Source: Austropuccinia psidii
Lineage: Eukaryota > Basidiomycota > Pucciniomycetes > Pucciniales > Sphaerophragmiaceae
Assembly (NCBI GenBank): GCA_023105745.1
Contig: JALGQZ010000011.1
Coordinates: forward strand, 48,638,698-48,702,697
Length of the DNA: 64,000 nt
Direction of reading: 5' to 3'
Shown here: positions 11,794 through 64,000 of the stretch, piece by piece
Numbering within the stretch: position 1 is the stretch's first letter
Layout: the number at the start of each line of letters is the position of its first letter
The notes under the pieces: generated by a model
The model's input: only the letters and a program-made list of their open reading frames with translations
The model's database searches: none
What the model was told of the DNA's origin: nothing
Made by a program: the position numbers and the translations under genes

Positions 11794-11825
11794 TTAAATT
11801 TAAGCTTAATTAAGCTTAAATTTAA
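11794..11825. repeat. Perfect 32-bp palindrome in B LTR (copy 1)
   Basis: A perfect self-complementary 32-mer built from TTAAATTTAAGCTTAA and its reverse complement. The identical palindrome is at 22889-22920 in the other LTR. The older solo B LTR at 44560-46738 has only a degenerate version. Confidence 0.85.
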
Positions 11826-12126
11826 CAATTTTAAAAAAATGTTAAAAAAGTTAAATTGGTACTGTGAGATTCTTAAATCTTCCAATAACATAAAAAATAA
11901 GGGGTTTTGGGTATAACACCCTATGGGTGTACCCTAGTTTATTTTTGGTGTAGAATCCAAAAATGACATAATATTTATAACTTTGTTTATCTAAAAAAAA
12001 GTTATACTTATTTTTTATTATTTTTTATTTTAAATTCAACTAAAAAGTCTGTTTAAGACAAAATTAACTGTTTATAAAATCATTTGTGGCCTTATGGGTA
12101 TGTCATACATACCTCACAGGCTCACA

Positions 12127-12263
12127 TTCCTTGCCACCAAAAAAAAATTGTACCACAATTTTTCCTTTGTAGTGTACCCCCAAGTTATTTGGGGGGGGTA
12201 TAATCCACTGTCCAACCTCTCTACTTATACTTCCAAGTATGTAAAGCACACAATTCAAACTTT
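12127..12263 (-). other. 3' untranslated stretch and polypurine tract of element B
   Basis: Reading on the minus strand, the pol stop at 12264 is followed by about 140 nt ending in GGTGGCAAGGAA directly before the 3' LTR start (TGTGAGCC). The purine-rich end is the expected plus-strand primer of reverse transcription. Confidence 0.6.
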
Positions 12264-16678: not shown

Positions 16679-17073
16679 CTATTCTCCTTCACAACTGAAG
16701 GTTGGCCATTCCTCTAATCTTGGAATGTCCTTATAATTGCAAGCAGTTTCCACATCATGACTTGAAATTGTATGATGTAAATCATTGCTCAAGTTAAGGA
16801 CATTTCTGTCAAGAATTGGTGTGGATTTCCTTGGCAATTAATTTTTTAGTGATATATTATTAATACTTGACTGAATGTCTTCTTTAAATTCAAGTCTTGC
16901 TTTATCACTTTTTTCCAATTGTTCTTGAAAAAGAGCTGCATTGTGACCAGTTGAATTTTCCAAGTTGTGTACTTGTATTTTCAATTCTTTTAACTGTCCA
17001 GTTATAAAAGAAATTGAATGTTCATCTGGTTGATTGAGTAAGGTAACTTTAAACTCAAGTCTTTCACAAATTT
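16679..17073 (-). pseudogene. Gag middle region of element B, coiled-coil part
   Basis: Reading minus from about 17073, the frame gives QICERLEFKVTLLNQPDEHS and a helix-rich, Glu/Lys/Gln-rich segment, then reaches the capsid region. Two nonsense codons lie in frame: TAA at 16838-16840 and TAG at 16679-16681. The upstream end is cut at 17078 by insertion E. Across the insertion the frame rejoins LENVNKANILSLT (about 19390), so this is one gene split by a 2.3-kb insert. Confidence 0.8.
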
Positions 17074-17632
17074 GCGTTGTGGGAACTCCTTTTGGTGTGG
17101 GATGAAATAAGGCAGTACCTTGAGGGGGAAATTATTGGTAAGTCTGTTTTGAATTTCAGAATTGTCCAATAACCATGGGTGCTAAGGTGTATTAGCTGCC
17201 CCTCTAAATAATACTGAATAGTCAGCCTACAGAGAATCACAAAATAAAATAAGATTTGTGGCTTTAACAGATAGAGAAGACTTATCAGCAGTCTCTAAAT
17301 CAGACCTATCAATAACACTACAGTAAAAATTCTGATCTAAAATTTCTGATAAAATAAACACTAGATTTTTTTACTTTATTTTAATAAAAGTGATGATAAT
17401 ATATATATATATATATGTTTTGGGTTTCTGTTATTTTAATGAAACTAATAAGAATTTTTTTTTTGTTTTTTGTTTTTTTTAAGAATGATAAGAATATATA
17501 TATTTTTTATGGTTTTAGGTTGATTATAATGATTTTTTTTTGATATGAGTACTAATAATAAGACTACTGGATTTGATTCTTTTAGGATTTTTTTTAATAC
17601 TGGGTTTTATATCACCACTACTTTTTTTTTAA

Positions 17633-17820
17633 TAATACTAAGCCACTGAGCAAGGCTACTGAGCTTTTTACTACGTTAATACTACTATTCTTCACTAATA
17701 CTAAGCTACTGAGCAAGGCTACTGAGCTTTTACTACGGTTATACTACTATTCTTCACTAATACTAAGCTACTGAGCAAGGCTACTGAGCTTTTCACTACT
17801 AAAACACTACTACTATTCTA
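17633..17820. repeat. Three tandem 62-63-bp repeats
   Basis: Copies begin at 17633, 17696 and 17758 with TAATACTAAGC then ACTGAGCAAGG and CTACTGAGCTTTT. The third diverges after its first half. Internal to insertion E. Confidence 0.9.
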
Positions 17821-18019
17821 GATATCCTGCTAGTTCAGGGATGGTTATGATCCTGAATAGTGGGAACTTGTTCCATGATGATGGGAAAAATGAGGGAGAG
17901 AGGACCTCTATTTATGGCTTTTGGGCCTCCATAGAGCTTCTCAAAATAGGGTACTTAGAAAAAATCATAGTTGAGAGGTTTTAGCTAGTGAGACGTGTAG
18001 TTTTGGTGTAGCAGCATGT

Positions 18020-18960
18020 TTGCTGAGAGATTTATGCTGGTGGTTCTTTTTCTTATCAAGATCATGTGATGTATTTGAGATATTTTGGCTGGTGAGATTT
18101 TCTTTTTATCAGAGTCATGTGAGGTCATTGAGATAATATGGCGGGTGATGTTTTCTTGAAGGTGGGGAAAGTATCTTTTTGTTTCTATTTTTTACGTATT
18201 TTATGAGAGAATTATGCTGGTGGTGCTTTTTCTTATCAAAATCATGTGATGTATTTGAGATAATTTTGCTGGTGAGACTTTCTTTTTGCCAAGAAAGTGG
18301 AGAAAATACAGCTCCTGACAATTGAACTGTCTTCTAGTCATATGATATATATGAGAAAATTATGCTGGTGTTTCTGTTTCTTATCAAAATCATGTGATGT
18401 CTTTGAGATAATTTGGCTGGTGATGTTTTCTTGAAGGCGGGGAAAGTATTTTTGTTTCTATTTTTACGTATGTTCTGAGAGAATTATGCTGGTGGTGCTT
18501 TTTCTTATCAAAAGCATGTGATGTGTTTGAGATAATTTGGCTGGTGAGATTTTCTTTTTATCAGAGTCATGTGAGGTCATTGAGATAATATGGCTGGTGA
18601 TGTTTTCTTGAAGGTGGGGAAAGTATTTTTTTGTTTCTATTTTTTACGTATTTTATGAGAGAATTATGCTGGTGGTGCTTTTTCTTATCAAAATCATGTG
18701 ATGTGTTTGAGATAATTTGGCTGGTGTTTCTGTTTCTTATCAAAATCATGTGATGTCTTTGAGATAATTTGGCTGGTGATGTTTTCTTTTTTGGTGACTT
18801 TGTTACGTATTTTCTGAGAGAATTATGCTGGTGGTGCTTTTTCTTATCAAAATCATGTGATGTGTTTGAGATAATTTGGTTGGTGATGTTTTCTTGAAGG
18901 TGGGGAAATTATTTTTGTTTCTATTTTTTACGTATGTTCTGAGAGAATTATGCTGGTGGT
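18020..18960. repeat. Irregular minisatellite, about 7 partial units of 126-180 bp
   Basis: The block ATGCTGGTG, then CTTATCAAAATCATGTGATG, then GAGATAATTTGGCTGGTGA, then TTTTCTTGAAGGTGGGGAAA recurs about seven times (near 18028, 18207, 18359, 18484, 18663, 18823 and 18947) with variable spacing. Short repeated open frames on the minus strand are by-products. Confidence 0.88.
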
Positions 18961-19389
18961 TTTATTTTAGTATTGTATCATTTAATGTGGAGATTGCATC
19001 ATTTCTATCAAGTTTGATGCATGTCATTATTACTAATCAAACATTTGTTCTTGGAAAATATATTGAAATTTTATGCATAGCCTTGAGGTATTTCTTCTTT
19101 AAATTGAATCAAGGTGGGGAAAATACATCTTCTGATGCTTTGGTCCATCTTCATATACCTTTATTTAGATTAACTGCCTTTAATGACGTAATTTTTTATT
19201 GATGATGCGATAAGGTGGAGATATCCTTTGATACTATACTGTTTTGATAAGATCTTGAGGCTGTGTATTGTATCTTTCTTTTTGAGATTTGTAGTTGTAA
19301 TGTGTAAATATGTTTTGCGTATTATCATTCATTTTTTTTTTGTTTTATTGGTAAGCTTAAAACTGGTACTAATGGTATGGAATACCACA

Positions 19390-20347
19390 GCGTCAAAGAC
19401 AAAATATTTGCCTTGTTAACATTTTCAAGGCCAATTATGGTCTTTTGTTGGTCTTTTACTTGTAGTATCTCATTACCCAACTTTTGTTGGACATGATCAA
19501 ATGCTTTAAATTTTGCCATAATTTCTTTATTACAAGATTCAAAGTAAGTTACAAGTTTTACAAGATCTACTTCTTTGGAAAGGATTGGTTCAATCTTTCC
19601 TCCTCCTTGTTTTTGAATTCCATCAAAGTTCTTGCCATATTGAACACATTGTCCATGGCTGTCTTTTCCTTCTTTGGGATTCTGTAATTCTGGGGGTAAG
19701 GTTTGTTCCACTTGGGCTTTGCCTTTCCCTTTGCCTTTTGCTTGCCCTTCTGATTGGTCTTTGGGGCTTGCTTGGGCTTGTTTGGCACTTGTTGAGGCGG
19801 ATTTTTGCTGGTGGATGCTTGAGGAGCTTCCACTGGGCTGTTGTCCTTGCCTTGAGCCAATTTCTTCTTCTGATCCTCTGACAACATGCTTTGGTTTTTC
19901 AACCAAGCTTTGATCTGTTGGACTTGTCCTTTGACAGACATTGGTGTCCAACCCAGCAGAAGATTTTCTGTCTTTTCTGGCCCCATGAACTTCTTCACCT
20001 GAAGATAAGAGTTAATGGTGCCTATCCAAAGACTTGGAAGGAGTTCCCACTCTTGTTGTTTTGACGCCAGGAACCAGTTTTTCCATTGGGATTGATAAAT
20101 TTCCACAGCTGCCTGTTGGAAATGGTTCAGGTCTAACAGCAATAGCAGTTATGTCAGCTTCTAGACTCTCAATAAGCGGTTCAAAGGTGCTGGCTAACCT
20201 TTGAGAACTGGTGGAAGTTCTGGCATCCTCCATTTGTGCCTCTCCTCTGGGAGGACATTCTTGCCTTTTGGATTTGTGGCTGGAATGTCCTGGTCCAGAT
20301 CCATTTGATTGGATGGAGTAGTTACTTCCACTTCTAGTAGGAGTCAT
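19390..20347 (-). pseudogene. N-terminal Gag frame of element B
   Basis: This frame starts MTPTRSGSNYSIQSNGS at 20347 and is in the same frame as the capsid-to-RT segment at 16672, so it is the N-terminal extension of Gag-Pol. It is low-complexity (Ser, Gly, Gln, Lys-rich), with a predicted helical end (VKLVTYFESCNKEIMAKFKAF) before insertion E. One nonsense codon (TAA at 20012-20014) interrupts it; otherwise it is open through to 19390. It overlaps the spliced ORF1 in another frame over about 570 bp. Its start codon lies inside an ORF1 intron (20395-20334). The role of this N-terminal extension is unknown. Confidence 0.75.
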
Positions 20348-20512
20348 TTCACGTCAATTTTAATAAAAAATAGAGTAAAATTGAATTGAATTCACCTGCA
20401 GGACCTTTAAAGGGCTCTTTGGTTATTAAACCCCTTGGTGCTGGACTGGTTTGAATTTCAATACTGGACTCTGAGGCTTCAGAGTCTGAAGAATTCTCTC
20501 TGATGGAAGACA
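19567..20512 (-). CDS. Spliced accessory ORF1 of element B, +1 frame relative to Gag-Pol
   Basis: Three exons can be drawn with GT/AG borders: 20512-20396, 20333-20199 and 20132-19567, with introns of 62 and 66 nt, typical of fungi. The joins keep one frame. The first exon starts TGTCTTCC directly after ...TCTCTAG, so an upstream exon ending in A would supply the ATG. Translation runs SSIRENSSDSEASESS..., then EVEVTTPSNQMDLDQD..., then DLNHFQQAAVEIYQSQWKNW and a Lys/Gln/Pro-rich basic tail ending in MARTLMEFKNKEEERL. I recall proteins of this type annotated in rust genomes. It shares the block FLA...EWELL, LGWTP and a following Lys-rich helix with ORF1 of element C. Function unknown; RNA binding is possible from the basic tail (inference). 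The upstream donor was not resolved. Confidence 0.68.
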
Positions 20513-21044
20513 CTAGAGAAAATTAAAAATATAAGTTATTTTATCAAATGATGAAAATAACTTATAAACTCAACTTATTAAATAAAGTTGTTTTAATGTA
20601 ATTTTATGGAAAATTACGTCAAAAATAAAGAAAAATGTCTAAGATAAAAGAAAAAATGTTTTTAGTAAAGATTTTTATTTTTAAATTTTTTTTTATTTGA
20701 TTTATTATTTTCTTTAAAGAAATAATAATTATGCAATTAACAAGTTAATTAATCAAAATTGTATTATTATTCACTTTATACTAGAATAACTCAAAGAATA
20801 AATTTCAAGTCTGTGATGTGAAAAAAGCCACTAGTTAGACAAAAGAAATTTATTCCAAGTCACTCAATAGTATATTTTTTCAAACAATATTCTTAAGAAG
20901 AAAATAACTTTATTAATATTATAAAGATTATTTATAAGGGATAAGTCCCAAAAAAGCCAATTTTACGTCAAAAATGGTAAAATAAGGTCTAGAATATGAT
21001 TTATGTCCCAAAAATTGGTTTAAAATCACGGCCAGGCCCCCAAA
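20513..21044 (-). promoter_or_regulatory. 5' leader of element B with primer-binding-site motif
   Basis: Immediately inside the 5' LTR, the minus strand reads TTT then GGGGGCCTGGCCGTG (21041-21027). Element C has the identical 15-mer 4 nt after its own LTR, although the two LTR families are otherwise unrelated. This is the expected place of the minus-strand primer site. I could not match it to a tRNA by eye. The rest is AT-rich with no frame and by analogy with element C is probably intronic. Confidence 0.6.
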
Positions 21045-23221
21045 TGTAAGGTTTGTCTATGAAACTCTTGATAATAGTAACAATATCAAGAGTACTATGA
21101 CTGTCCTCAGTAGAAAAATATGATATAATAAAATATTACAACCACAAATTTAAATATAATTATTAAAAATAATTATATATAAAAAAAATAATTTAATTAT
21201 TATTATAATAATATAATAATAAAAAAATAATAATAATTATTCTATTATTGTTATAGTCACTGACAGTTATAACAATAAGAAGTGTAAAGCTCTTAATGAG
21301 ACAATTACATGTGGAAAATATAAATATTTAACCACTTATAAATAATATAAATATTATTTATAAAAGAATGAAAACACACACTGTGCAGAAATGATTCTTA
21401 TAGAGGAAATTCTATATATAAAAAAACTAATACTAGACAAAAAAATATAGAATTTTTAGAGAAAACTTACTTATAAGATTTATTTAATATAATAAGTCAA
21501 ACAACAACAGTTATAATATTAAATAATAATTATAAGTTAAAAACACGTCAAAAATCAATAAATTTAAAGATAAAAAGACTTTTTATAATATAAATTATGA
21601 TTAAAGAGTTTTTTAGAGGAATTTGTGGATTTTAAAAGATATTTAAGAAGATAATTTTATATAATAAAATATATTATTGGTGATTACAACAATAATCTGA
21701 ATTCTATGAATTAAATTCTTTAATTTCAATAAATAAAGAATAAAAATAACTTAAGAATGACTCTTAATAATAAGATTTTATATTTAATAAAACTTTACCT
21801 GTTTAAATTTCTAATATGATTGGATTGATAATGAATGATGGACAAAAACAGTGATGAAAAGACTCTTTTTATGTCTTCAGAGCAGCTCTCATGATTCATA
21901 ATGGATGTAGAGGGCGTGCTCAGGTCAAAACTGAAAAACCATGCTTAAAAATAAAGTTTTTAACTCAAGGCAACTTATTTTTACTTCCAATTTAAAGTTA
22001 CCAGTGTTATTCTTAACTCCAAGTAACTTTGATCCTTATTTAGTTTAACTATTTTAAGTTTTAATATAAAATAAGGTTATTTATATTAAAGTTCATCAAA
22101 TGAACAACTTAAAATTAGAGTTTCAAGCAAAAATCTCTTAAACTCAATTTTTAATTAATTTCTAAAGAAATCATAATTTTCTTTGAGTTTAATTAAAAGA
22201 GTAAATTTCCAGGCTAATTACCCTGGAAATTTATTTATAAAAGATACTTAAAATTTAATTTATATATTTATAATATTAAATTCTAAGTTGTGTGAAATTT
22301 TCAAGCAAATCCATTAAGAATTGGGTTTTTAATGAATTTTTGAAGTTATTGCTATTTTTCCACGTAAAATAGCAAAACACACCAAACCTTAAGTTTTGAT
22401 AAGGTTTTAATGCTTGAAACTTTAAAATTTTAAGCTTATTGAAGGTTTTTAAGCTTAAATAAGCTCTGATAGTTCTTAAAACCTTGATTTCAAGCTTTCA
22501 TATTGGGATTTACCCTTTGGCGGCTTGAAATTCCTGTCCAATTTGGGATAAAACCAGTTTAAACCTTAAGGTTGGATCAAAGTCTACTCTTAAAGCTTAA
22601 ATAAGGTTGAAAATCCTCCAATACAGGTGGACAACCTTAATTGAATCATTGCAGATCCAAAAAGTTGGGTACCCCAGCTCTATTTGGTCTTTTTCCTTTG
22701 TCCCACCTTTCTGCGTGGATTTTGCCTTTTTATTTATTTAAAGCCATACTATGGCCTTAAACCCTTTTAAATTGAGCTCACGCAGGATTTACATTCTGTA
22801 TGGCAAATCCTTCGCCAATTCAGTAAATATACACCACACCTTACTTTTAACTAAAATTTTGGTAAGTTTGCATAAACCTTATGCAACTTTAAATTTAAGC
22901 TTAATTAAGCTTAAATTTAACAATTTTAAAAAAATGTTAAAAAAGTTACATTGGTACTGTGAGATTCTTAGATCTTCCAATAACATAAAAAATAAGTGGT
23001 TTTGGGTATAACACCCTATGGGTGTACCCTAGGTTATTTTTGGTGTAGAATCCAAAAATGACATAATATTTATAACTTTGTTTATCCAAAAAAAAGTTAT
23101 ACTTATTTTTTATTATTTTTTATTTTAAATTCAACTAAAAAGTCTGTTTAAGACAAAATTAACTGTTTATAAAATCATTTGTGGCCTTATGGGTATGTCA
23201 TACATACCTCACAGGCTCAAA
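21045..23221 (-). repeat. 5' LTR of element B (2177 bp)
   Basis: Plus strand TGTAAGGTTTGTC... to ...CAGGCTCAAA (last CA mutated to AA). Same family as 9168-12126 and intact. The palindrome at 22889-22920 lies in it. It contains the pre-insertion site of solo LTR D (single CTAAT near 21812). There is a short length difference from the 3' LTR near 21240. Confidence 0.92.
22889..22920. repeat. Perfect 32-bp palindrome in B LTR (copy 2)
   Basis: Identical to the palindrome at 11794-11825. Includes two AAGCTT sites flanking a central TTAA. Confidence 0.85.
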
Positions 23222-24307: not shown

Positions 24308-25482
24308 CCATGGGTTTGATTTCTTTCTTCATAAATTACATATCCATCATTTATTAATACAAAAAATATTTTAATGGAGCTCATTCACAATGGGGAAATA
24401 AAACTCTTACATGAATAACATTGAAGCACTTTCCATTGTCTGTCCCATTTGAAATAGTTAACTGACTTCAAATATTCCCAAAATTACTAGACATTGATCT
24501 GGGAATTTGTCTGAATGCAAAACTTGAATGTATAAAAGATAATTCTTGTTAAAATGAACATTTTTGCAGAAATCATCTTCACCATATCATCTTTTACCCT
24601 CTCTTACATACTTTATATTACTATAAAAAGGAAAATCATGAGCCTTGAATGTTGTTTTGATAAGTAAATAAATGATTTTTTATTGTTCATTGATATCCTA
24701 TATTTGTGTTAAAAGAATTCTTTTCACAAGTATTGGGAGTTTATTTATTGGTTATTCATTTACATGAGTGAGGAGTAGTATTCTTTTCTTCAAAAAGCTG
24801 TACTCTTAAACTGATTATTCAACATATTAACCTGAAGCCTATCATTAAAGAATCATGAGCTCTTTAAGATGTAATGGGAAAGGTTCATTTGAAAACATTT
24901 TTCCCAATTTCAATTTCCTTGTGTATTAAGTTAAATAATCCTTGAATCAAAACAATCTGGGCCATATAAAGTTGTACTTGATTTTAACTCAAAGAATTCA
25001 ATTTGTTTTTGAATACCTTGTCATTATTCACACTTGATTCCTTCTTCAAATATTTTCTATAAGAAAATCTGGAAAGAATATGAGTGTTTACTTTTCAAAT
25101 TTCCCATTCCTGGGTAAATCTCCTTCATTTTGGTCTCAGATATGTATTTTCAGAAATTTTAATTTCACTTAGTATTCAAAGTATTGTTAATTTTAACCCC
25201 TCTTTTGAAAAAAGTGCAAATAATCACCAGGAGAAATTCTTGTCAAAAGAAAAAGTAACATTTTTTGCAAATCTGACCTTTCTCTTTTGATTTGAGATTA
25301 TTTTTTGTGAATTTTTTGGCAATTTTTATATTCTTAATGTTTTAATTGTTAGAAAAAAATGACTTTGTTTTAATTTTCTCCAATGTTCTTTCATTTTCCT
25401 CAATTTCTTTTGGTTTTGGTAATATTGCTGAAGTTTTTTGGTACTTGTTTCTTTGTTTTTTTCTCTTTGGTTTTTTTTTTGT
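24308..25482. other. AT-rich DNA without recognised features
   Basis: No frame longer than about 70 codons, no LTR ends and no RNA gene recognised. Probably old decayed repeat DNA flanking the A2 insertion. Confidence 0.6.
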
Positions 25483-26762
25483 TTGATTATTGTTTTGATT
25501 TGATTTTATTTTTATTTTTATTTTTATTTTTATTTTTAATTTTAATTTTAATTTTAATTTTATTTTTATTTTTATTTTTATTTTTGTTTTTATTTTTATT
25601 TTTATTTTTATTTTTATTTTTATTTTTATTTTTATTTTTATTTTTATTTTTATTTTTATTTTTATTTTCATTTTTATTTTTATTTTTATTTTTATTTTTA
25701 TTTTTATTTTACATTTATTTTATTTTTATTTTATTTTTATTTTATTTTTATTTTATTTTTATTTTATTTTTATTTTATTTTTATTTTATTTTTATTTTAT
25801 TTTTATTTTATTTTTATTTTATTTTTATTTTATTTTTATTTTATTTTTATTTTATTTTTATTTTATTTTTATTTTATTTTTATTTTATTTTTATTTGATT
25901 TTTATTTTATTTTTATTTTATTTTTATTTCATTTTTATTTTATTTTTATTTTATTTTTATTTTATTTTTATTTTATTTTTATTTTATTTTTATTTTATTT
26001 TTATTTTATTTTTATTTTATTTTTAGTTTGTTTTTATTTTATTTTTATTTTATTTTTATTTTGTTTTTATTTTATTTTTATTTTATTTTTATTTTATTTT
26101 TATTTTATTTTTATTTTATTTTTATTTTATTTTTATTTTATTTTCATTTTATTTTTATTTTATTTTTATTTTATTTTTATTTTATTTTTATTTTATTTTT
26201 ATTTTATTTTTATTTTATTTTTATTTTATTTTTATTTTATTTTTATTTTATTTTTATTTTATTTTTATTTTATTTTTATTTTATTTTTATTTTATTTTTA
26301 TTTTATTTCTATTTTATTTTTATTTTATTTTTATTTTATTTTTATTTTATTTTTATTTTATTTTTATTTTATTTTTATTCTATTTTCATTTTATTTTTAT
26401 TTTATTTTTATTTTTATTTTATTTTTAATTTTAACTTTATTTTTTTTTTATTTTTTATTTTTTTATATTTTTTTTATTTTTTTTTATTTTTTTTTTATTT
26501 TTTTTATTTTTTTTTCTTTGTATTTATTTATTTTTATTTTTTTTTATTTTTTATTTTTTTTATTTTTTTTTATTTTTTTTATTTTTTATTTTTTTTATTT
26601 TTTTTTATTTTTTTATTTTTTCTTATTTTTTTTTATTTTTTTTATTTTATAATTTTATTTTTTCATTTTTTTTTGATTTTTTTTATTTGTTTTTTTTATT
26701 TATTTTTTATTTTATTTATAATTTTATTTATTTTTATTTTTATTTTCATTTTAGTTTTTTAA
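25483..26762. repeat. 1.3-kb T-rich microsatellite tract
   Basis: The first part (about 25500-25710) is a TTTTTA hexamer array with TTTTAA variants. The centre (about 25711-26430) is an 11-mer array TTTTATTTTTA with rare C or G interruptions. The end (26430-26760) decays into T-runs with single A spacers. Open frames coding only Phe, Tyr, Ile and Leu on plus or Lys and Ile on minus are artefacts. Confidence 0.97.
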
Positions 26763-29700
26763 ATTAATTTCAGGATTTATTTCCTCAATCAAGACAACCA
26801 GAGAATGGCCATAAATTATCACCATGACATTTCTTTACATTTATTCCCATTTAAAAAAAGTTGTTTAAGGAGGAAATTTCCCTTTCGTATGTATGGTAAC
26901 ATAATTTAGTCTCTAGACTAATTGTATAGGTTGGAGATCTAACCTTTAATATTCAAATTTTCCATTTTTGGATGAATTGATAGCAATATTTTTTTGAATA
27001 AAGGCAGAAAAAAATAATCATTATTGAGATTTTCAAGCCTGGCATTGCACATATGTGGAAGAAAACATAGTTTATGAGCAAATTTCAAATCAAAAGCTTG
27101 TACTAAGCTATAATTGGGAAATATATGTAGTATTAATCCTAGGAGCATAAAACAAACTTATATTTCAAAGGAATAATTCAAAAAATTTAAGAAAGAGACA
27201 AAATTAAAATACTCTCAGCCAGTTCCCTTTTGAGGGGATGAAGAATTGGAGTCTTATCTTTTCTTGATCTCACTAATTTTATTAAGCTATATGAGCCTTA
27301 AAGTGAGTACTTTGGCATATAATATTTATATTCCAAAATGAAAGAGAAAAATAAGCTCAAATATTTCTGCTTATAACCGCACTTGAAGGGTATTAATCCT
27401 TCAAAACAACTTGGATGGGAGCTCTTAGAAATATCTTATTGTAAACCTTTCTATTTGAAGAAATACATATCATGTCATAAGAAATATTTTAAATTCAATA
27501 ATTAAATGAGCTTATTGCGAGAGATCAGATTTACCACTAGTTTGAGATTATAATACATATCTAAATATAACTCCCACTGGTTTCTGAAAATAATAATAAT
27601 CAGTAAATTCTTCATAAATGTATTTGAGGGGAAGGTTTCAAATCAAGTATATTTTTCTCACTACCAAATAAGAGGTTTGTGTTTGATTATTATAATTAAT
27701 TTCTGGATCAAGTGCCGAATAGCTATAAGAGTGAGTAAATTCATACAATGGCTAATTGAGTTTTGGAGTTTGTTGGATTTTTTTGTTTTCAATTATATCC
27801 CAATATATATACAAGTGCATGTATGTTTTAAAGGAAATAAGCCACCTTATAAATATGCTTTGTAAATTTCAAATGATAATTATGATTGAATTTCAAAATT
27901 GTAATTAAGTTAAAATTATTAAAAAGACTAAAATATAAAATAAACTGTGAAATGAATCCAAGGGATTTTTTAAAAGAAATAATTGTCTTTGGAAAGAAAA
28001 TCATGAGAAGATTAAAAGTGCATATCATGAAAGTTAATTTTTATTTGAATAATGAATTCTGTAAATTGTGATTTAGGCCTAAAAAGACCTTGATAATTGA
28101 TTCCTGATTTTTATTCTATGCAGGGATTAGTACAAATTTTCAATGCAAGAAATATTCTTGGCCATATGAATAATTCAAATGTATAGGTGTAAAATGTTTT
28201 TGTAATTTTTTTTATTTTTATGATAGAGTAGTAACAAATTCATCTTTTTTGATTTGGAAAAATTATCATAAGCTTACTTATATGTCTCTGGAAAATATAG
28301 AAAAAATTAGGAACCTCATTCAAAACCTATTTTATCACAATTGTAGGATATAATCAATGGTTTTTACAATAAGAGCCTTTGTATGAAGTAAATGAAAGTC
28401 TATAATATATTCCTATCAAGTAAGTTATTTTGAAAATGTTGGGTATATTAGATTTTATGTGAGATGGAAAGAAATAATTTTTGATTCATAAAATAAGTAA
28501 TTTTATTTCGATCATGGGAAAAAGGTGCCAAAGTGATTATATCCTGAGTTTCGCAAACATTGGGTATAAGGGATAAGAGAAAGAAAGAGCTATATTTAGT
28601 GAATTTCCTTTGGTAAAAATTTCCTTTAAACCTCATCTGTTTCTAATAGTCGAGGAATGAATGGGTAGTTACATATTCAAGCTGATATGCAAGCATAAAT
28701 CCTATGGAAAGAGATGGGTGAGAATAAGATCTAGTACTATTTACATGTACACAAGTATAATTGCTTAAAAATAATTGAATTGAGAATAAAAATTTGATGA
28801 AGATATGTAAGCTACTGAGTTCGTATCATTAAACAGATAAAACTCAATGTGATTTGATAAGTGCTCTTGCTGATCAAAATTTGTAAGCCTTTAATATTTA
28901 AACAAGTTGTGCAAAAAGAGAGCTATAATTCAATTAAATTAATAATATTACTTAAGCTTCAATATCTCATCTCAATGAGAAAATGGATATTTCTGCATAA
29001 TTTTCAATATAATCTAAATCTCAGCGTATAGATGAGCCACCATTTGACATAAATATATTTAGCTTCCACATATAACCTTCAGATGTTATGATGGAGATTT
29101 GTATTTAATTCATTATGACGAAGATTATGATTCTTGGAATTTGATTCTTTTAGAGGATAGGATTGAATATTTCTGATAGATTTACAATTTATATGTGGTA
29201 TAAATTTGATATAGATAATTAATGAATCGTGGAAATGACATATAGATAAATATATTAACGAAGAAATTATAAATTAAGTTTATCCAGGTTTCCTGATCTA
29301 AGAATTCATTATTGATATTTTTTTACGAAATCTTAAGATTGAAGATGAAATTGAATATTCTGAATAGCTTTAAAATAAAATGAGATACTTAAATTTGAGA
29401 TTCAATTATATAAATACTCAAGCTGGAGTGAGACTTTAATCATAGTTAATAGAGAGGAAGTTCTCTTTATGGGATACGAGAATAATACTAGATTATTATT
29501 TCTGACTTAAATATTACAGAAAGGTTAGAGTTTTATAATGCTTATTATGATGAGGTTAAAGCCTCCTGTTTGTACAAGAAATCTCAAAGAGAGTAATGGA
29601 TTAATGAAATGATAGTAAGAATGGAAGTTGAAATTAATTATTCAATATTGTACAGAGAATATGAAGAAAATTTTGATTGAGGAAATGTTTGTGTATTGAT

Positions 29701-55193: not shown

Positions 55194-56632
55194 TGTCAGC
55201 CTGTGACTCAAAACCAGAGCACAAGCATGACAGCCAAAATACCATAAACCAATGGTATAGCCAAAATACCACCAAAACATGGAACTGAGCCAAATTAGCT
55301 CAGAAGGTATCAAAAGAAAGAGGAAACTCACCTATTCCTGAAAATATAAGTCCCATCACCATAGGACAAGAAATAACAAAGTTATTCCTGCTCAAAGTTA
55401 TTGCTGAGCATAAACCTTAATTTTCACCTCTCATCTAAAATCTAGAAGGAGAGGCTTAACCCCATCAAATGGGTATTCAAAATGAAGCTGTAAGCCAGGG
55501 CTTTCTAATGGTGCCAGCCAAACTGAGCTAGCACCAGTATTACTTGAGTTATGGTCAAATTCAGACCAAATAAGGGTGAACAAAACATTCACCTCTCATC
55601 TAACTTTTACAGTTTTAGTGTGAGATACTTAAAGAGGGGTCTTTTTGGAAAGAGCACAATCAGGGCTATCTGATGGTGCCATCCATTTCCTCATAACTCA
55701 ACTACAACAGAAGTTATTGGCCAAACAAGCTTAATACAGCTTTTGACCAGACCACGCCAATGTACAAAAATACTTGTACATGGGATAACTTTGTCATATT
55801 GAATGATAACCATGTCAAGTTGGGTACCATTGTGTAGAGCTCATACAGGGCTATTCAATGAACCAACTTCGAGCTTGATATCTCAAAAACTGACAGAGGT
55901 ATGACCATTTTAAGGTCAAAATCCCACCTGCTGTCAGATACAGCCTTACCATGGGATAATATCCCATAACCATGAATATGAGGTGTCAAATAGACGAAGA
56001 AGCATGTTTTTACTTCAATACCTCATATGTCAGTCAATACTGGGGTCCCATACAGTTTCTGTACAGCATTCTACGCGTCATACACGTCAGAATCAGGCTG
56101 TGAGGTCCCCAGATGAAAATTTTCACCGTGTATTGGTGAAGACTGCCCAGATGTGGTTTCAAAACCACATCTGAGCCCAATACAGGGTATACAGGCTGTT
56201 TGCAAACCACAAGCCTGTCCTGGAGAGTTAAAAATCTTCACTTCCTCTACGTGGAAAGGTCTAGCAGCCTTTCCACCTCAATTTCAGGATAAAAGGAGGG
56301 CTTTTCACAGCCAAAACCCTTTCCTCATCCTGCTCTTGAATAAACTACGTAGTAAACTGTCAAAAACAGTTTTACTCTTGGTTAAATAATCAGGTATACT
56401 CTTAATTTAAAGTATTGTAGTCTTTATTATTGTAATCCAACAGGTAAAGCTGCACCCAGGGCTTTCAACAGCGCTCACCACCACTATATGTCTATAGTAA
56501 AGCCCTTTAAATCTTAAATTAAATCATTTATTATCAATCTTATCATCTTTTAAAACCATTTTTACCGTGTCACAGTCATAGTTAAAGCTTGTAAATACTC
56601 ATATACACCTTTATCATAGACTCAGCCTGACA
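55194..56632 (+). repeat. 5' LTR of element C (1439 bp)
   Basis: TGTCAGCCTGTGACTC to GACTCAGCCTGACA. Contains the conserved hairpin core at 56148-56173. Presumably holds the promoter; I could not fix the transcription start. Confidence 0.93.
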
Positions 56633-57225
56633 TTTTGGGGGCCTGGCCGTGTTTTTTTTAACTTTTTGGACCTTACAAGTAAGTCTTTTCTCTTTTTTAT
56701 GACTTATTAACACATTGTTTTATCTTTTTTTAGGCGTAATTTCCATTTAAATATATATATTTTATATATTTTTATCTTTTTCATATACTCATATTATAAA
56801 AGAGTATTTTTCACGTGGCTAATACCCACTGAAAATAATTATTTTTGGCGTGTTTTGTATATAAAAACACATAAGCCATCAATAAGTCCTGTATTCTTGA
56901 CTGAATAAGGACACCTCTGACTGAAAAACCATCAATTGAGGCGTGGATTAAGTGTATTGTTGACTCAATAACACTTATACAAAACCACTTGTACAGAATA
57001 CACTTGAAAACCACAAGTGTATCTGTGGGATACTGGCACACAAACAGTGTGACAGGGTACCAAAAGCTGTAATTCTGACGTGTAATTGTTGATTCAACCA
57101 CACTGTCATTATACAGGGGCATACTGTAATAATATACAAGCCCAGAGGCCATTCTTAGACGTGCAAAACCAGCCATTTAAGAAGTCTTAACTGACATAAG
57201 CCCTCTTTTTCCTGTTTTGATTCAG
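56633..57225 (+). promoter_or_regulatory. Leader of element C: primer-site motif and probable 547-nt intron
   Basis: GGGGGCCTGGCCGTG at 56637-56651 is identical to the motif in element B at the same place. A consensus 5' splice site ACAA/GTAAGT (intron from 56679) and a 3' site TTGATTCAG (ending 57225) define a possible 547-nt intron. Joining A56678 to TG at 57226 creates an ATG followed in frame by GAAGAAAACTAC, the start of ORF1. The intron is inferred from sequence only. Confidence 0.6.
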
Positions 57226-58294
57226 TGGAAGAAAACTACATCCCACTTGAAACCCAGTCACAGGCCAACACACCAGTGACACCCTCAGAACCAGAGGGCA
57301 GCAAGGGTAAAGGAAAAAGGCTTAGTGAAGGCCTCATTACAGCCAAGAAGTGGACACCAAGAGCCACTCAGAGGAGTAGAAAACCACGAAACTCTTCTTC
57401 AATACAAGGTAAACCAACCTTAACCACTTTTACAGGGAAGATTACAATTATTAACCCAGTTGTAACCTCCAAAGGCAAACTGCCCAAATCAGCAGATAAC
57501 AAATTTGTACAAGGCACAGTCAAAGGTAAATACCCTAAGAACATAAAGTTTTTGACTGCTTCCAAACACTGATATGTCCCCTGCATACCTCAGAGACCTT
57601 GGCTTCCAAAGGAACCAGCCAGAGGATAGAGCAGGAATGTCTAGAACCAGAAGACCTGAAAGAAGACACATTGGACACAGTGGTGGATGGCAAAACAATG
57701 AGGGAGATAATATCAACCTTGCCATTCACACTCCAATTCAACAGAAACCTCAAACCAGAGGACTGGAAGGATATGGATCAAGTTCTTCAAATCCACCAAC
57801 TCCTCAAAGATTTGTTTCAATGGAGCATGGACAACAAGAGGTTCAACCTAGCAACTCACTGGGCAGAACTGGGATCAAGTTGCCAGAAGATCTGTCTCAA
57901 AGAGATAGACTTCAAAGACCTTATGGTAATCACCAAGGGTTGGAATCCTACCAGGCAGCACAGACTCCTGGAGGCAAGGGCACAGAGGATAAGGGAGAAT
58001 CAAGCCACTATCCAATCTATAGAAGAACAGTTAACCCAGACAGGGCCTACTCAGATTCCTTCAGGTTCACAAGGAGCATGCCAAATCAGCTCTCCAGTGG
58101 CTTCACACCATTCAGAAACCAGCAGATCAGTGGCCAAGAGTCACCATTCTTTACAATTCCAGGAAGTTTCCAGGAGAAGACAAGGCAACAAGGGCAAGAA
58201 CAAAGCCTCCTTCAACCAGAGGAGGAAAAAGTCAGACCCCATGATCCAGAAGCTGTTAGATTTGGTAAAAGAAGTACACAAGAACCAGAATTAG
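57226..58294 (+). CDS. Spliced accessory ORF1 of element C, +1 frame relative to Gag-Pol
   Basis: Exon 57226-57525 (EENYIPLETQSQANTPVTPS..., a Pro/Thr/Lys-rich leader) joins exon 57594-58294 across a 68-nt GT-AG intron (GTAAATACC...ACCTCAG). The join preserves frame (VKETLASKGTSQ) and, with the splice-made ATG, gives about 333 residues without a stop. The second exon encodes WKDMDQVLQIHQLLKDLFQW, FNLATHWAELG, ITKGWNP, a helical RAQRIRENQATIQSIEEQL and a basic tail ending DPMIQKLLDLVKEVHKNQN. The last 701 nt overlap gag in another open frame. Protein-like composition, an intact frame and a homologous ORF in element B argue that it is real. I recall rust proteins with this sequence. No known catalytic motif; function unknown. 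Confidence 0.75.
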
Positions 58295-60897
58295 TTGTAA
58301 ACCACTCTAGAATCAGTAGTCCTAGTAATAGAAACATTACCCCCACTCAGACTGAAAATAACATTATCACATCTGAGAGTAACATCAACAGTGACACACT
58401 GTGGTTACAAATGTCCCAATATGCTGAGCAATCTGCAAAGCAGGCTACAGAATTTGCAGCTGCCCAAGAGAGGATGAGAAAAACTCAAGCCTCATTGGAG
58501 CAGATAGTTAAAAACCTTCAGGAAGGATATGCTCAACTGAGCAAAGCCTCTGAAGAAACCAACAAGAGACTGAACCAAGTCTCTGAAGAACAACACCATA
58601 GTAGCAGGGACAGGGAGTGTCTGAACCAAGAAATCAACAAATTGTTTGATGCCTACCATAGCTTAAAGCCCCAACCACAAGGCCAAGCTATGGACAATCC
58701 ATATCAACCAGATGACATCAAACCAGATGCCATGTTGTTGAATAAGGCAAGATCTCCATCACAATACCAGGATGGAAATGGCATGTCTTATTCAGAGAAG
58801 GAAGCCTTGAAACAGCTTCCTGAGGCCTCAAACTGGCCCAAATTCTCTGGATCAGGAGAATATGATCATATGGAGCTCATAGATTATATTGATGGACTCT
58901 TCATTGATGTACCAAGCATACCAGATTACTGGATTACTGCTAGACTGAATACTGCATTTAAAGGTCATGCAAGTATATGGTACACTGAAATGAAAGAAAT
59001 CCATGGCAGAAGAAATTGGCCATGGTGGAAGAGTCAAATAATCCAAAAGTACAGTAATGGAACTTGGATATCGCAAAAGACCATGTCATTTGAAAATGAC
59101 AAATACTCTGTGGACAAAGATCCATATGAGTGGTGTCTTAGACAGTCTAAAAGACTTAAAGCCATTGATCCTCAAATGAACATTCAAATGAGGAATCATA
59201 AGCTTCCGACACAACTGCCAGGAGAACTAGAGCATGCAGTAAAGTGCAGATGCAACCAAAATTGCACTCTAGATGATATAGCCAATACCTTACAAGACAT
59301 AAGGAAAAGGACTAATATAGGGAAATTCACCCCATATAGAAGCAGTAGTTTCAAAGAGAAACAACCTTTCAGGGTGGAGTTTAAAGACAAACCCAGAGAA
59401 AGAGTGGCAGAAGTGGCAAAGAAGAAGAATTCTTGTCACAATTGTGGTTCAACAGACCACTATGCCAACAACTGTCCAAAAGCAAAGAAGAAAGTCTATG
59501 CTATAGAAAAAGTCCCTGAAGAAGAACCTCCAACAGAGGATTCTGAATCAGACTCTATGGGTGATGCCATTAGAGAACCATCTGATGAGGATCAAGACCC
59601 AAGAGAGGAATTTCTAGTGGAATACCAAGAGGAAACCCCACTAGAAATCCAGGATATACAGTTGGAAGCAGGCATGCCACAAGACACTGCCAACAAGAAT
59701 TTGTGTAAACATACACAAGATGCACAAACATTCCTGGTTACACCAACCAAAGGAATGGCATACATACATGGAACAGCCACAAAAATGACTGTATGTATTG
59801 ACAATGCTCAGCATCCACTGATCATTGACAGTGGAGCACACTGCTCCATAGTGGCCAGAAATTATCTGGATAACCACTTCCCAAATTGGGAAAAAGAACT
59901 CTTGCCCACCAGGGCAAAGAACTTTAAGAGTGCATCTGGAAAGATGACCTCTATTGGGACAATTATCAAAGAGATAATTATACCCCACAGAAAAGGTAAT
60001 ATCAGACTCAACCCAGAGTTTGTAGTGCTTGAAGATGCCCACATCCAAGGGTTTTTACTGGGAACAGATTACCAGAGGATGTATGGCATAGATATTTACA
60101 ATAGTAAAATTAGGCACATTACCATTGGTACTAACAAGGAAAAGAAATTTTCTCTTGATATATACCAGATATCTTCTCAGGACCCACTGGAAGAACTTCT
60201 GAAAGAATTCAGAGAGGGACAGTTTAGCACTACCCTCACCAGTAAACAAAAGTTAAGTTTACTGAAGATGCTGAGGAAGAATAGACCAGCATTTGCCATT
60301 GGTGAAGAACCATTAGGCAAGATCAAAGGCCATGATATAGAACTATATCTGGATGTGGAAAGGCCTTATCCACCCATGTTAAGGAGACCTCCTTACCCAG
60401 CAAGTCTGGAGACCAGGAAAGAGATTGAGAAACATATCAATGAACTCCTGGACATGGATGTCATTAGGAAGATTGGACATAATGAAATAGTGGAAATCAC
60501 CACTCCTGTCCTAATCACCTGGCATGATGGCAAGTCTAGATTGTGTGGAGACTTCAGAGCCCTGAATAACTACACAAAAGCAGACAGATACCCTATACCA
60601 AGGATACCTCATGCCTTGGATAAGCTAGCCAAAGCCAAATACATAACCAAGATGGATTGTATGAAAGGCTTCCACCAAAATGGAGTTAAACCAAACTCCA
60701 TGAAGTTGCTCAGAATAATATGCCATATGGGCATATATGAGTACACCAGGATGCCATTTGGCATCAAGAATGCACCAGCCCACTTCCAAAGGATGATGGA
60801 CACCATATTTCAAGAAGAAATAATGGAAGGCTGGATGGTAGTGTATATTGATGATATCATTATATACTCAGAGACATGGGAAGACCATGTACAATAA
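57574..60897 (+). CDS. Gag-protease-RT part of element C polyprotein (ends at premature TAA)
   Basis: 1107 residues. The N-terminal 230 residues are Ser/Gln/Pro-rich and overlap ORF1. A coiled coil lies at about 270-365. Capsid-like region about 420-590 (EIHGRRNWPWWKSQII). Zinc knuckle C621, C624, H629, C634. Protease DSGAHCS with catalytic Asp 752. RT from about 980 (ITWHDGKSRLCGDFRALN) to the catalytic YIDD at 1091-1094. Gag, protease and RT are one continuous frame. The ATG at 57574 is the first in frame and lies inside the ORF1 intron, 20 nt before its 3' end. The frame stops at TAA 60895-60897, where the A2 copy has a Tyr codon, so a single base change explains it. The same frame continues immediately downstream. 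Confidence 0.93.
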   Translation: MSPAYLRDLGFQRNQPEDRAGMSRTRRPERRHIGHSGGWQNNEGDNINLAIHTPIQQKPQTRGLEGYGSSSSNPPTPQRFVSMEHGQQEVQPSNSLGRTGIKLPEDLSQRDRLQRPYGNHQGLESYQAAQTPGGKGTEDKGESSHYPIYRRTVNPDRAYSDSFRFTRSMPNQLSSGFTPFRNQQISGQESPFFTIPGSFQEKTRQQGQEQSLLQPEEEKVRPHDPEAVRFGKRSTQEPELVVNHSRISSPSNRNITPTQTENNIITSESNINSDTLWLQMSQYAEQSAKQATEFAAAQERMRKTQASLEQIVKNLQEGYAQLSKASEETNKRLNQVSEEQHHSSRDRECLNQEINKLFDAYHSLKPQPQGQAMDNPYQPDDIKPDAMLLNKARSPSQYQDGNGMSYSEKEALKQLPEASNWPKFSGSGEYDHMELIDYIDGLFIDVPSIPDYWITARLNTAFKGHASIWYTEMKEIHGRRNWPWWKSQIIQKYSNGTWISQKTMSFENDKYSVDKDPYEWCLRQSKRLKAIDPQMNIQMRNHKLPTQLPGELEHAVKCRCNQNCTLDDIANTLQDIRKRTNIGKFTPYRSSSFKEKQPFRVEFKDKPRERVAEVAKKKNSCHNCGSTDHYANNCPKAKKKVYAIEKVPEEEPPTEDSESDSMGDAIREPSDEDQDPREEFLVEYQEETPLEIQDIQLEAGMPQDTANKNLCKHTQDAQTFLVTPTKGMAYIHGTATKMTVCIDNAQHPLIIDSGAHCSIVARNYLDNHFPNWEKELLPTRAKNFKSASGKMTSIGTIIKEIIIPHRKGNIRLNPEFVVLEDAHIQGFLLGTDYQRMYGIDIYNSKIRHITIGTNKEKKFSLDIYQISSQDPLEELLKEFREGQFSTTLTSKQKLSLLKMLRKNRPAFAIGEEPLGKIKGHDIELYLDVERPYPPMLRRPPYPASLETRKEIEKHINELLDMDVIRKIGHNEIVEITTPVLITWHDGKSRLCGDFRALNNYTKADRYPIPRIPHALDKLAKAKYITKMDCMKGFHQNGVKPNSMKLLRIICHMGIYEYTRMPFGIKNAPAHFQRMMDTIFQEEIMEGWMVVYIDDIIIYSETWEDHVQ

Positions 60898-63429
60898 ATA
60901 GACAGAGTGCTAAGTAAATGTACACCCATCAATCTGAAAATTTCACTTAAAAAGTGTAATTTTGGCCAACAAGAGCTACTAGCTCTAGGACACAAAGTCT
61001 CAGGCCTTAGTCTGGCAATTGACCAGAACAAAGTAGCAGCAGTACTGCAAAAGCCAGTACCAAAGAACATCAAAGAGATGCAATCTTTCCTTGGATTTGC
61101 TAGCTACTACAGAAATCACATCAAAAACTTTGCTCACATAACTAGTAGCCTATACAAGTTATGCTCAAAGGATGTAGTTTTTGAAATAACCAAGGAAAGG
61201 AGGGATGCATATGAGAGGATCAAATATGAACTCACAAATGCACCTGTTCTCATCTTGCCTGACTTTGAACTACCATTCAAGCTATATATAGATGCAGCAT
61301 GCAGCCAAGGCTTGGGAGCAGCCTTTCACCAAAGACAAATTGTGGATGGTGAACCAAGAGAAGGTGTAATATGTTACATCTCTAGGCAGCTGAAAGATTC
61401 AGAAGCCAGGTATGGGGCCACCCAGACAGAATGTCTATGTCTAGTCTGGGCTCTAGAAAAACTCCATTATTATTTGGAGGGTGCAGTCTTTGAAGTCTAC
61501 ACAGACTGCACAGCCTTGAAGTCTTTACTAAACATGAAGACTACTAATAGACACATGCTGAGATGGCAAATAGCCATCCAGGAGTATAGAGGGAACATGA
61601 ACATCATATACAAGGAAGGTAAAAGCCATACCAATGCAGATGGCCTTAGCAGATGGCCACTGGACAATGTCAAAAGCAATCCAGCTTATGACCCTGAAGT
61701 TGCTGCAAAAATCCCTATCCATTTTATGGAAATAAATAGGAAAAAGAACTTCAGATTCTCTGAATGGGCACCAGGGAGTGGTACCCTTGACAGTGGAAAC
61801 ACTGATTCAGAAGGGACAGAAACCCCCATACTGGGAATAAGTTCCTCAGCACTGCACAATGAATTTTTCAATGCAGTGCTGAAATCATATGCTAAACACA
61901 AACAGTGTAGCATACTACTCCAACTCCTTCAACAAAAATACAGGAGCCGAGAACTGGAAACCCAGCTGGAGGAACCCTGGTTGAGGGCCTATAAGGACAA
62001 TAAATTCTTCCTTATAGATGGCCTGATTTATCACAGAGATAAGCACACCAGTGCACTCACAGTGATAGACAGAGACCACATCTCTTTAATCCTGCAGGAA
62101 TGCCATGACTGCCCCTACATGGGACACATGAGTGAAGACAGGACTAAAGAGAGGGTAGCAAGCACAGCTTGGTGGCCCAGGTGGGAACAAGAGTTGAGTG
62201 AATACATCAACACTTGTGAAAGATGCCAAAAGGCAAATAGAAAGCATGGGAAGAAATATGGGTTGCTTCAACACATAGAAGAACCCAAACACCCATGGGA
62301 AACCATCAACATGGACTGGGTCACAGGACTTGTCCCAGGAGGCAAAGAAAACTACAATGCCTGCCTAATAATAGTTGATAGGTTCAGCAAGAGCATGAGA
62401 TGTCTACCATGCCATAAAGAGGACACAGCCATGGACACTGCTCTGTTATTTTGGAATAACATCATATCCACCTGTGGAGTCCCTAAGATCATAATTAGTG
62501 ACAGGGACCCAAAATTCACATCTGAATTTTGGACCAATTTGTATGACATGCTAGGCACCAAGCTTGCTTTTTCCACAGCTTACCATCCACAAACAGATGG
62601 CCTAGCTGAGAGGATGATCCAGACAATGGAGGACATCCTCAGGAGGTTCTGTGCCTACGGCATGGAATACAAGGACCATGAGGGATATACCCATGATTGG
62701 GTCACCCTCTTACCAGCAGTCCAACTAGCTTATAATACAAGCCAGCACTCTACCACAGGAAAAACACCTGCACTGGTAGAGAAAGGGTGGAATCCCCTTT
62801 TACCTGTGGATCACTTGAAGAAAAATCTTCTGACCATCCACCCCACAGCCAAAGACTTCCATGATATGTGGAAGAAAGCCTGTGATACTGCTGCCAAATG
62901 CATAGCTGAGGCCAAAGAGTATAATAAGCAGAGGTGGGACAAATCACATATGGAACCTGACTTCAAGGAAGGGGACCAGGTGTTAGTGTCTACACTAAAC
63001 TTTAACAATCTCAAAGGACCCAAGAAAATGAGAGACTCATTTGTAGGGCCCTTCACTATCATTAAGTTGATAGGGAAGAATGCAGTAGAGGTCAAGCTCA
63101 CTGAGGAGTTTTCTAGGAAACACCCAGTCTTTCCAGTAAGCCTGGTCAAACCATACTTCCAAACAGAAGAGGATAAATTCCCCTCCAGGAAGAAAAACAT
63201 CACTCCACCAGAAATAGTGGAAGTAGAAGACTCTCCTGGACCTGTGAGTAAAATCATCAGGGCCAGAAAAATCAGACTCAATGGGAAGGATCAAAGACAA
63301 TATCTAGTCAGATTCAAGAACCAGACAGCTGACAAAGACAAATGGTTGGCAGAGGATGCCATACCAGATGGGAGCCTCCATTTAAGGAGATTCAGAGCCT
63401 CTAGGAGGACTGAACAGTCTCATCAATGA
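60898..63429 (+). CDS. RT thumb, RNase H, integrase and chromodomain part of element C polyprotein
   Basis: Same frame as 57574-60897 and open to TGA at 63427-63429. Counting from the codon at 60907: RNase H carboxylates D129 (YIDA), D200 (YTDC) and D245 (NADG); integrase zinc ligands H400, H407, C437 and C440; catalytic D470, D532 and E568 with 35 residues between the last two; GPF motif (VGPFTII); chromodomain-like end [19 protein letters not shown]. All key residues are present, so only the upstream nonsense codon blocks a full polyprotein. The stop is followed by the purine tract and 3' LTR. Confidence 0.95.
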
Positions 63430-63453: not shown

Positions 63454-64000
63454 TGTCAGCCTGTGACTCAAAACCAGAGCACAAGCATGACAGCCAAAAT
63501 ACCATAAACCAATGGTATAGCCAAAATACCACCAAAAACATGGAACTGAGCCAAATTAGCTCAGAAGGTATCAAAAAAAAGAGGAAACTCACCTCTTCCT
63601 GAAAATATAAGTCCCATCACCATAGGACAAGAAATAACAAAGTTATTCCTTCTCAAAGTTATTGCTGAGCATAAACCTTAATTTTCACCTCTCATCTAAA
63701 ATCTAGAAGGAGAGGCTTAACCCCATCAAATGGGTATTCAAAATGAAGCTCTAAGCCAGGGCTATCTAATGGTGCCAGCCAAACTGAGCTAGCACCAGTA
63801 TTACTTGAGTTATGGTCAAATTCAGACCAAATAAGGGTGAACAAAACATTCACCTCTCATCTAACTTTTACAGTTTTAGTGTGAGATACTTAAAGAGGGT
63901 TCTTTTTGGAAAGAGCACAATCAGGGCTATCTGATGGTTCCATCCATTTCCTCATAACTCAACTACAACAGAAGTTATTGGCCAAACAAGCTTAATACAG
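63454..64000 (+). repeat. 3' LTR of element C, first 547 bp
   Basis: TGTCAGCCTGTGACTC onward, colinear with the 5' LTR with 8 differences (one 1-nt insertion, seven substitutions). Cut by the window end. Confidence 0.95.

Follow-up and report, generated by a model that had tools for sequence, protein, structure and literature searches.

How can a retrotransposon hold two protein-coding frames over the same 5′ part of gag, and which RNA would be read in which frame? The question is raised by a locus in the rust fungus Austropuccinia psidii, within a 64,000-nucleotide (nt) stretch of DNA (GenBank assembly GCA_023105745.1, contig JALGQZ010000011.1, positions 48,638,698 to 48,702,697) referred to here as the window. 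The locus belongs to element C, a Ty3/Gypsy (Metaviridae) retrotransposon in which paired long terminal repeats (LTRs) enclose an internal region with a primer-binding site (PBS)-like sequence, and in which the Pfam domains zf-CCHC, RVT_1, RT_RNaseH, Integrase_H2C2 and rve follow one another in the Ty3/Gypsy order. Ahead of the Gag start codon and across the 5′ part of gag runs a second open reading frame (ORF), termed ORF1, in the +1 frame. The favoured reading, given a probability of roughly 0.78, is that ORF1 represents a real and conserved accessory gene that would be switched by splicing and shares its DNA with the 5′ part of gag.

Two open frames over the 5′ part of gag

The first-pass annotation of this DNA proposed a 68-nt GT-AG intron across which exons 57226-57525 and 57594-58294 join in frame, with the Gag ATG at 57574 inside it, and a stretch of about 700 bp in which two frames are open. 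The sequence agrees on each count: the intron is in phase 1, the ATG lies within 57526-57593, and neither the +1 frame nor the gag frame has a stop between 57596 and 58291. Once spliced, ORF1 is a frame of 333 residues without an internal stop. Two further statements required amendment. The 1107-residue gag frame is indeed open, but it contains Gag, protease and part of the reverse transcriptase (RT), and constitutes one Gag-Pol frame stopped at 60895-60897. This in-frame stop cuts the Pfam RVT_1 domain, and RNase H and integrase continue in the same frame. Likewise, the element C copy has an early in-frame gag ATG besides 57574, at 57637 in exon 2, but the description of 57574 as the only one does fit the family, since the second ATG is nearly private to this copy.

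The family is known from predicted proteins, of which 692 match spliced ORF1 and 334 match the N-terminal gag frame; counts on relatives given here concern the best 120 listed of each, all of them hypothetical proteins of A. psidii MF-1. Among the listed gag-frame relatives, 92 align at position 57574 and 90 of these carry M, while at 57637 the residue is M in one and L in 97 of the 115 that align. A manual count found that 79 of the 120 gag-frame models start with MSP. On the other side of the pair, ORF1 exon 1 differs from its matching proteins at 18% of aligned residues. A GTVK/ETL-type junction at intron 2 is present in 49 of the 65 exon-spanning models among the 120 listed, with intron text in two, and an alternative text pattern finds 54 of the 120 to be junction-like. 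Junction and start counts of this kind come from loose text patterns applied to sets of 120 or 240 listed proteins and leave non-matching proteins uncounted. Two scans of viral contigs yielded no DNA of relatives.

The probability that either frame is open by chance was addressed by stop-count tests, in which one protein was held fixed while its synonymous codons were permuted or its codons resampled, with 5000 trials each. With ORF1 fixed, the gag frame of element C has no stops versus 8.6 (permuted) or 15.2 (resampled) expected, a result reached in 0/5000 trials of each kind. In seven gag control stretches of equal length, each of the two remaining frames contains 10-27 stops. That the gag frame stays open across ORF1 in element C is not due to chance. 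The converse, an open ORF1 frame over Gag, is mixed, being significant under codon resampling only (0 stops versus 6.0 expected, 0/5000).

Codon-position variation offers a second, rougher view, as each set of relatives was chosen for one open frame. Protein differences were projected onto the codons of the window, and rates were pooled over transitions and transversions. Within the overlap, variation is highest at ORF1 position 3, which is gag position 1 (0.047), compared with 0.027 at ORF1 position 2 (gag 3) and 0.032 (ORF1 set) or 0.025 (gag set) at ORF1 position 1 (gag 2). The excess at ORF1 position 3 consists of transitions. Single-coding gag, taken as a control, gives 0.040 at position 1 and 0.027 at position 2. 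In the single-coding exon 1 of ORF1 the corresponding values are 0.021 and 0.033, so that the ratio of position 2 to position 1 is 1.60 there and 0.85 in the overlap. On this rough and modest signal, constraint seems stronger on ORF1, and the gag frame seems mainly kept open.

A second, divergent element

Element D, which lies on the minus strand over at least 9165-22110, is by its predicted gene structure a second, divergent Ty3 element with the layout of element C. Its two LTRs are 97-98% identical in three stretches. The Gag-Pol proteins of the two elements share 42% identity over 711 amino acids (54-64% in pieces of Pol), and the PBS-like sequence TGGGGGCCTGGCC is common to both. The complement of this sequence appears, by eye, unlike the usual tRNA 3′ end (no tRNA search was made).

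With the Gag start of element D taken as ATG 20347, its ORF1 is predicted in three exons (Table 1). Predicted protein P0242 carries both D junctions and fits donor 20404. In P0241 and P0272, the latter compared over its first 60 residues, the first junction is three codons longer and better fits donor 20395; P0241 also has a different second junction. An initial splice model with an acceptor at 20108 was dropped for the three-exon model after comparison with P0241 and P0242.

The stop-count tests give a similar picture for exon 3 of element D. With ORF1 fixed, the gag frame contains one stop versus 9.1 (permuted) or 17.4 (resampled) expected (0/5000 each), and with gag fixed the ORF1 frame contains none versus 3.4 (permuted, 30/5000) or 5.2 (resampled, 9/5000). 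The short exon 2 alone yields a weak signal (592/5000 and 18/5000). Elements C and D thus have in common a phase-1 intron holding the Gag ATG, an accessory frame that is +1 to gag, and a TGA-N-ATG at the Gag start, although the spacing of the last was noticed post hoc and has no P value.

The gag of element D also contains an apparent insertion at 17150-19380 (minus strand) with ~114-nt repeats (18024-18928) and an ATG-free part at 17875-17175. This may be an LTR from a third family, nested within gag.

Table 1. Features of elements C and D in window coordinates; a slash within a sequence marks a predicted splice junction.
Feature	Position	Strand	Remarks
5′ LTR, element C	55194..56632	+	repeat of the right LTR; ends in TGACA, followed by TGGGGGCCTGGCC
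ATG desert, element C	56489..57573	+	single ATG (56699, 3-codon ORF) ahead of the Gag ATG
PBS-like TGGGGGCCTGGCC, element C	56636..56648	+	exact match in element D at 21042-21030, minus strand
Candidate leader intron 1, element C	56679..57225	+	CTTACAA/GTAAGT ... TTTGATTCAG/TGGAAG; split A/TG would give ORF1 as MEENYIPLE...; inferred from sequence
ORF1 exon 1, single coding	57226..57525	+	open; matched by predicted A. psidii proteins
ORF1 intron 2, 68 nt	57526..57593	+	GT-AG, phase 1; GTAAAT...CTCAG; contains the Gag ATG
TGA-T-ATG	57570..57576	+	with intron 2 retained, the exon-1 frame ends here, one base ahead of the Gag ATG (57574-57576)
Gag-protease-RT part of the Gag-Pol frame	57574..60897	+	Pfam zf-CCHC, RVT_1; closes at the in-frame stop
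ORF1 exon 2, dual coding	57594..58294	+	+1 frame across the 5′ part of gag
Remaining Pol (RNase H, integrase)	60898..63429	+	same frame as Gag; Pfam RT_RNaseH, Integrase_H2C2, rve, SH3_Tf2-1
3′ LTR start, element C	63454..64000	+	reaches the window end, hence partial
ATG-free leader, element D	20348..21046	-	extends to the D Gag ATG
ORF1 exon 1, element D	20405..20512	-	follows TCTCTAG/TG; three of the 120 listed models (P0241, P0242, P0272) carry exon-1 text
Intron 2, element D, 71 nt (62 nt with donor 20395)	20334..20404	-	contains the D Gag ATG (20347), TGA-A-ATG
ORF1 exon 2, element D	20199..20333	-	+1 frame across gag
Intron 3, element D, 66 nt	20133..20198	-	11 of the 120 listed models have PVPK/DLN-type text
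ORF1 exon 3, element D	19567..20132	-	+1 frame across gag

Start codons and the proposed splicing switch

The exon at 57226-57525 contains no ATG, and the start of ORF1 must therefore come from further upstream, from at least one more exon. Between 56290 and this exon, no unspliced ATG opens a frame into ORF1. Directly upstream of exon 1 is a good acceptor, TTTGATTCAG/TG, and the donor best by consensus is CTTACAA/GTAAGT at 56679, with a counterpart in element D, CTTATAA/GTAAGT, at 21470. Further donors preceded by A occur in element C at 56352 and 56497. From these signals it seems somewhat probable that the ORF1 start codon is a split A/TG made by removal of the leader intron.

The leaders of both elements are depleted of ATG, as judged by 2000 dinucleotide shuffles. 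Positions 56633-57573 of element C hold one ATG versus 12.2 expected, positions 20354-21046 of element D hold none versus 8.1 expected, and the candidate leader intron of element C holds one versus 10.2 expected (0/2000 shuffles in all three cases). ATG numbers are normal in the U3 part of the LTR, the overlap, gag and pol of element C. With both strands considered, at most one ATG in 941 nt is found in three places of the window, namely the two leaders and a low-complexity tract at 25360-26825; the absence of ATG over 693 nt is found in the same three and at 17875-17175 on the minus strand. Exon 1 of element D is too short to tell (0 ATGs versus 0.8 expected, 800/2000). Because both deserts terminate at the respective Gag ATGs, unspliced RNA is probably translated. 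Moreover, the leader intron is itself ATG-poor, and RNA holding it would therefore be scanned by ribosomes, making unspliced RNA the likely Gag-Pol messenger.

The CpGs of the leaders were tested as well. If deaminated, 11 of the 12 would yield an ATG, compared with a background of 146/324 (P = 0.001); this is a hint only, because the controls give 6/8 in U3 and, in the R-U5 part of the LTR, 2/3 (element C) and 1/1 (element D). Several leader CpGs (56735-57160; 20348-21046 minus) stand in a repeated GACGTR of both elements, often behind a T-run, and element C also has GGCGTG. CpG is rare in the gag of element C (2 in 3324 nt). The leader motif might bind a protein or serve in packaging; alternatively, it could have been kept since CpG decay would make an upstream ATG.

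Under the favoured reading, one pre-mRNA would give either Gag-Pol or ORF1. On unspliced genomic RNA, ribosomes would scan the almost AUG-free leader and begin Gag-Pol at 57574. Removal of the leader intron, for which 56679-57225 is the best candidate, would join A to TG as the ORF1 start, and removal of intron 2 would eliminate the Gag AUG and place ORF1 in the +1 frame relative to gag. If the leader intron alone were removed, reading of ORF1 would stop at the TGA one base before the Gag AUG, where reinitiation may be possible. The splicing itself and the reinitiation are inferred from sequence. A switch in which spliced RNA gives ORF1 and intron-retaining RNA gives Gag-Pol had already been proposed in the first-pass annotation, and it gains indirect support from the ATG-poor leader, the relatives in each frame and the layout of element D, but its two-exon ORF1 needs an additional upstream exon to start.

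Several findings weigh against this reading. With Gag fixed and codons permuted, the absence of stops in the ORF1 frame of element C is not significant (0 versus 1.3 expected, 892/5000). The codon-position signal is modest, as the ratio of gag position 1 to position 2, 1.86 in the overlap, is already 1.49 in single-coding gag, and transversions alone reverse it (1.37 in the overlap versus 1.84 outside). The ATG shortage in exon 1 of element C alone is not significant (0 versus 1.5 expected, 351/2000). The element C copy has the stop in RT and two small upstream ORFs, at 56488 (9 codons, in the LTR) and 56699 (3 codons); the ATG at 56488 is absent at that site from the other three LTR copies of the window, where R-U5 carries 0, 2 and 1 ATGs at other sites. 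The element D copy has a stop in gag, and its leader-intron donor falls within the LTR, whereas that of element C follows the PBS. A profile comparison of the two ORF1 proteins detected no homology (probability 0.6%). Finally, the residue before EEN at the proposed start, readable in 57 of the 240 listed models, is V in 19, M in 12 and L in 12, is the model start in 11, and is K, R or T in one each.

This last variation bears most directly on the strongest alternative, which is possible if not favoured: ORF1 and intron 2 are real and the start is supplied by a different upstream exon, by a non-AUG codon, or through leaky scanning to an internal AUG. The occurrence of V and L besides M before EEN and the presence of donors other than 56679 suit this view, as do the internal ORF1-frame ATGs 57773, 57827 and 57923, which are kept as M in 106-109 of the 120 listed relatives. 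Internal starts would, however, leave unexplained the protein-level matches to exon 1 in many relatives. Of the 119 listed relatives aligned at the first internal ATG, 57698, only 25 have M, and without splicing the region from 56290 offers no ATG leading into ORF1.

Alternative 3′ splice sites might also link ORF1 exons to the gag frame and generate an N-terminally extended Gag as an additional product. Some models, such as P0037 and P0135, do fuse ORF1 and gag-frame text, but these two do so at different points, apparently by choice of the predictor; as most gag-frame models begin at MSP, such a product seems unlikely. It is more improbable still that Gag starts downstream, for example at ATG 58411, leaving the gag frame over ORF1 untranslated. 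Pfam gives no match for the stretch of Gag under the overlap, which has a low-complexity look, the gag frame seems less constrained than ORF1 by codon position, and ATG 58411 is kept as M in 97 of the 114 listed relatives aligned there. Against this, an open gag frame with ORF1 fixed was reached in 0/5000 trials in element C and, despite one stop, in exon 3 of element D, M at 57574 is nearly invariant among aligned relatives, and the ATG deserts end at 57574 and 20347. Hardly credible is the view that the +1 frame reflects the composition of gag instead of a gene and that the gene models are prediction artefacts: the permutation result for element C and the reliance on predicted proteins would allow it, but resampling (0/5000 in C, 9/5000 in D) and permutation in D (30/5000) speak against it, as do the single-coding exon 1, which has matches in relatives and joins in frame, the modestly higher variability of the ORF1 third position in the overlap, and the recurrence of the layout in element D.

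Genomic setting, possible function and known systems

The genome of A. psidii is dominated by Gypsy/Ty3 elements, according to two reports (PMC8063080, PMC12774611); the first gives a size of ~1 Gb, more than 90% transposable elements, mostly Gypsy, and 33.8% GC (PMC8063080). The second report mentions RNA-seq from spores and from an infection time course (PMC12774611). Both the C and the D families are abundant in this genome. The GC content of the window is 32.7%. The LTRs of element C are 98.5% identical over 547 nt, and despite this the copy is not intact, given the stop at 60895-60897 inside RT. Remains of more C-family copies are seen at 1-9163 around an LTR at 2249-3686, with pol before this LTR; the pol that follows it lacks the leader and most of gag. 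The low-complexity tract at 25360-26825 is open in several frames, rich in Phe, Leu and Ile codons, and a source of false long ORFs.

The function of ORF1 can be approached through its relatives P0004 (element C) and P0242 (element D), for which no Pfam family was found. An AlphaFold2 model of P0004, based on a 51-row alignment, is poor (predicted local distance difference test, pLDDT, 56.9; predicted template modelling score, pTM, 0.27) and shows long helices; a Foldseek search of this model against the PDB gave no matches at E ≤ 0.001. Near the C-terminus of ORF1 are basic blocks of 30 residues with net charges of +4 and +6 in element C and +4 and +10 in element D, and in the P0004 model, poor overall, an end helix (319-335) is predicted after the basic part. 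Given the null profile comparison, a likeness of the C and D proteins by eye (GLIT in exon 1; GW.P..NQ) is a lead only. An export or splicing regulator made by the element is guessed at because genomic RNA that keeps its introns needs an export route, such as the one that the CERV protein gives the element Cer1. That ORF1 binds RNA as a regulator, possibly exporting the unspliced form, is accordingly no firmer than a guess and doubtful at present.

The proposed arrangement has parallels in other retroelements. In retroviruses with regulators such as Rev, Rex and Tat, unspliced RNA gives Gag-Pol and spliced RNA gives the regulator, the first splice bypassing the Gag AUG. Retroviral accessory exons lie mostly 3′ of gag. 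In contrast, most of the accessory gene of element C would overprint gag itself.

A closer comparison is Cer1, a Ty3/Gypsy element of Caenorhabditis elegans. CERV is made from spliced mRNA in which exon 4 is read in a frame other than that of gag, whereas Gag comes from unspliced RNA and CERV exports the intron-keeping genomic RNA (PMC10309623). Exon 4 apparently lies within gag (PMC10309623). By comparison of layout alone, the accessory ORF of element C resembles CERV in having an exon out of frame with gag and over it. The accessory protein of Cer1 shares its N-terminus with Gag; in element C, by contrast, the Gag ATG is intronic, and ORF1 exon 1 lies upstream of it in another frame. ORF1 is also placed wholly ahead of and over gag, +1 to it, such that splicing would remove the Gag AUG. 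The earlier suggestion that no Ty3 element is described this way was therefore too strong, Cer1 CERV being a partial precedent, though a start codon within the intron still sets element C apart (PMC10309623). What differs from Cer1, on the predicted gene structures, is the full separation of the accessory protein from Gag, the Gag start within an intron, and the repetition of the layout in two divergent families.

Other published accounts come less close. Plant LTR retrotransposons have additional conserved ORFs beside gag-pol (PMC7264820), and the word 'overlap' has no occurrence in the accessible text of that article. For the Gypsy/Ty3 elements of A. psidii, no gag or ORF structure was found in the accessible text of the two genome reports, in each of which 'gag' occurs 0 times (PMC8063080, PMC12774611). 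A literature search, with many subscription journals outside its coverage, found no fungal Ty3 element described as having this layout.

A fuller scheme, a conserved splice-controlled start-codon switch in fungal Ty3 elements, is tentative and on balance unlikely to be right as a whole. The first splice would build the ORF1 AUG and the second would remove the Gag AUG, once-spliced RNA would give a short ORF1 product and then Gag by termination-reinitiation at TGA-N-ATG, and a Rev- or CERV-like product would decide whether RNA stays unspliced. The switch would be conserved in two or more divergent families, each of them with hundreds of predicted proteins.

For the annotation of A. psidii, the consequence is that hundreds of its 'hypothetical proteins' (the 692 and 334 matches) look like two frames of one retrotransposon region. 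If the favoured reading is true, retrovirus-like splicing control with a dedicated accessory gene would exist in fungal Ty3 elements, and a gene could hide inside gag.
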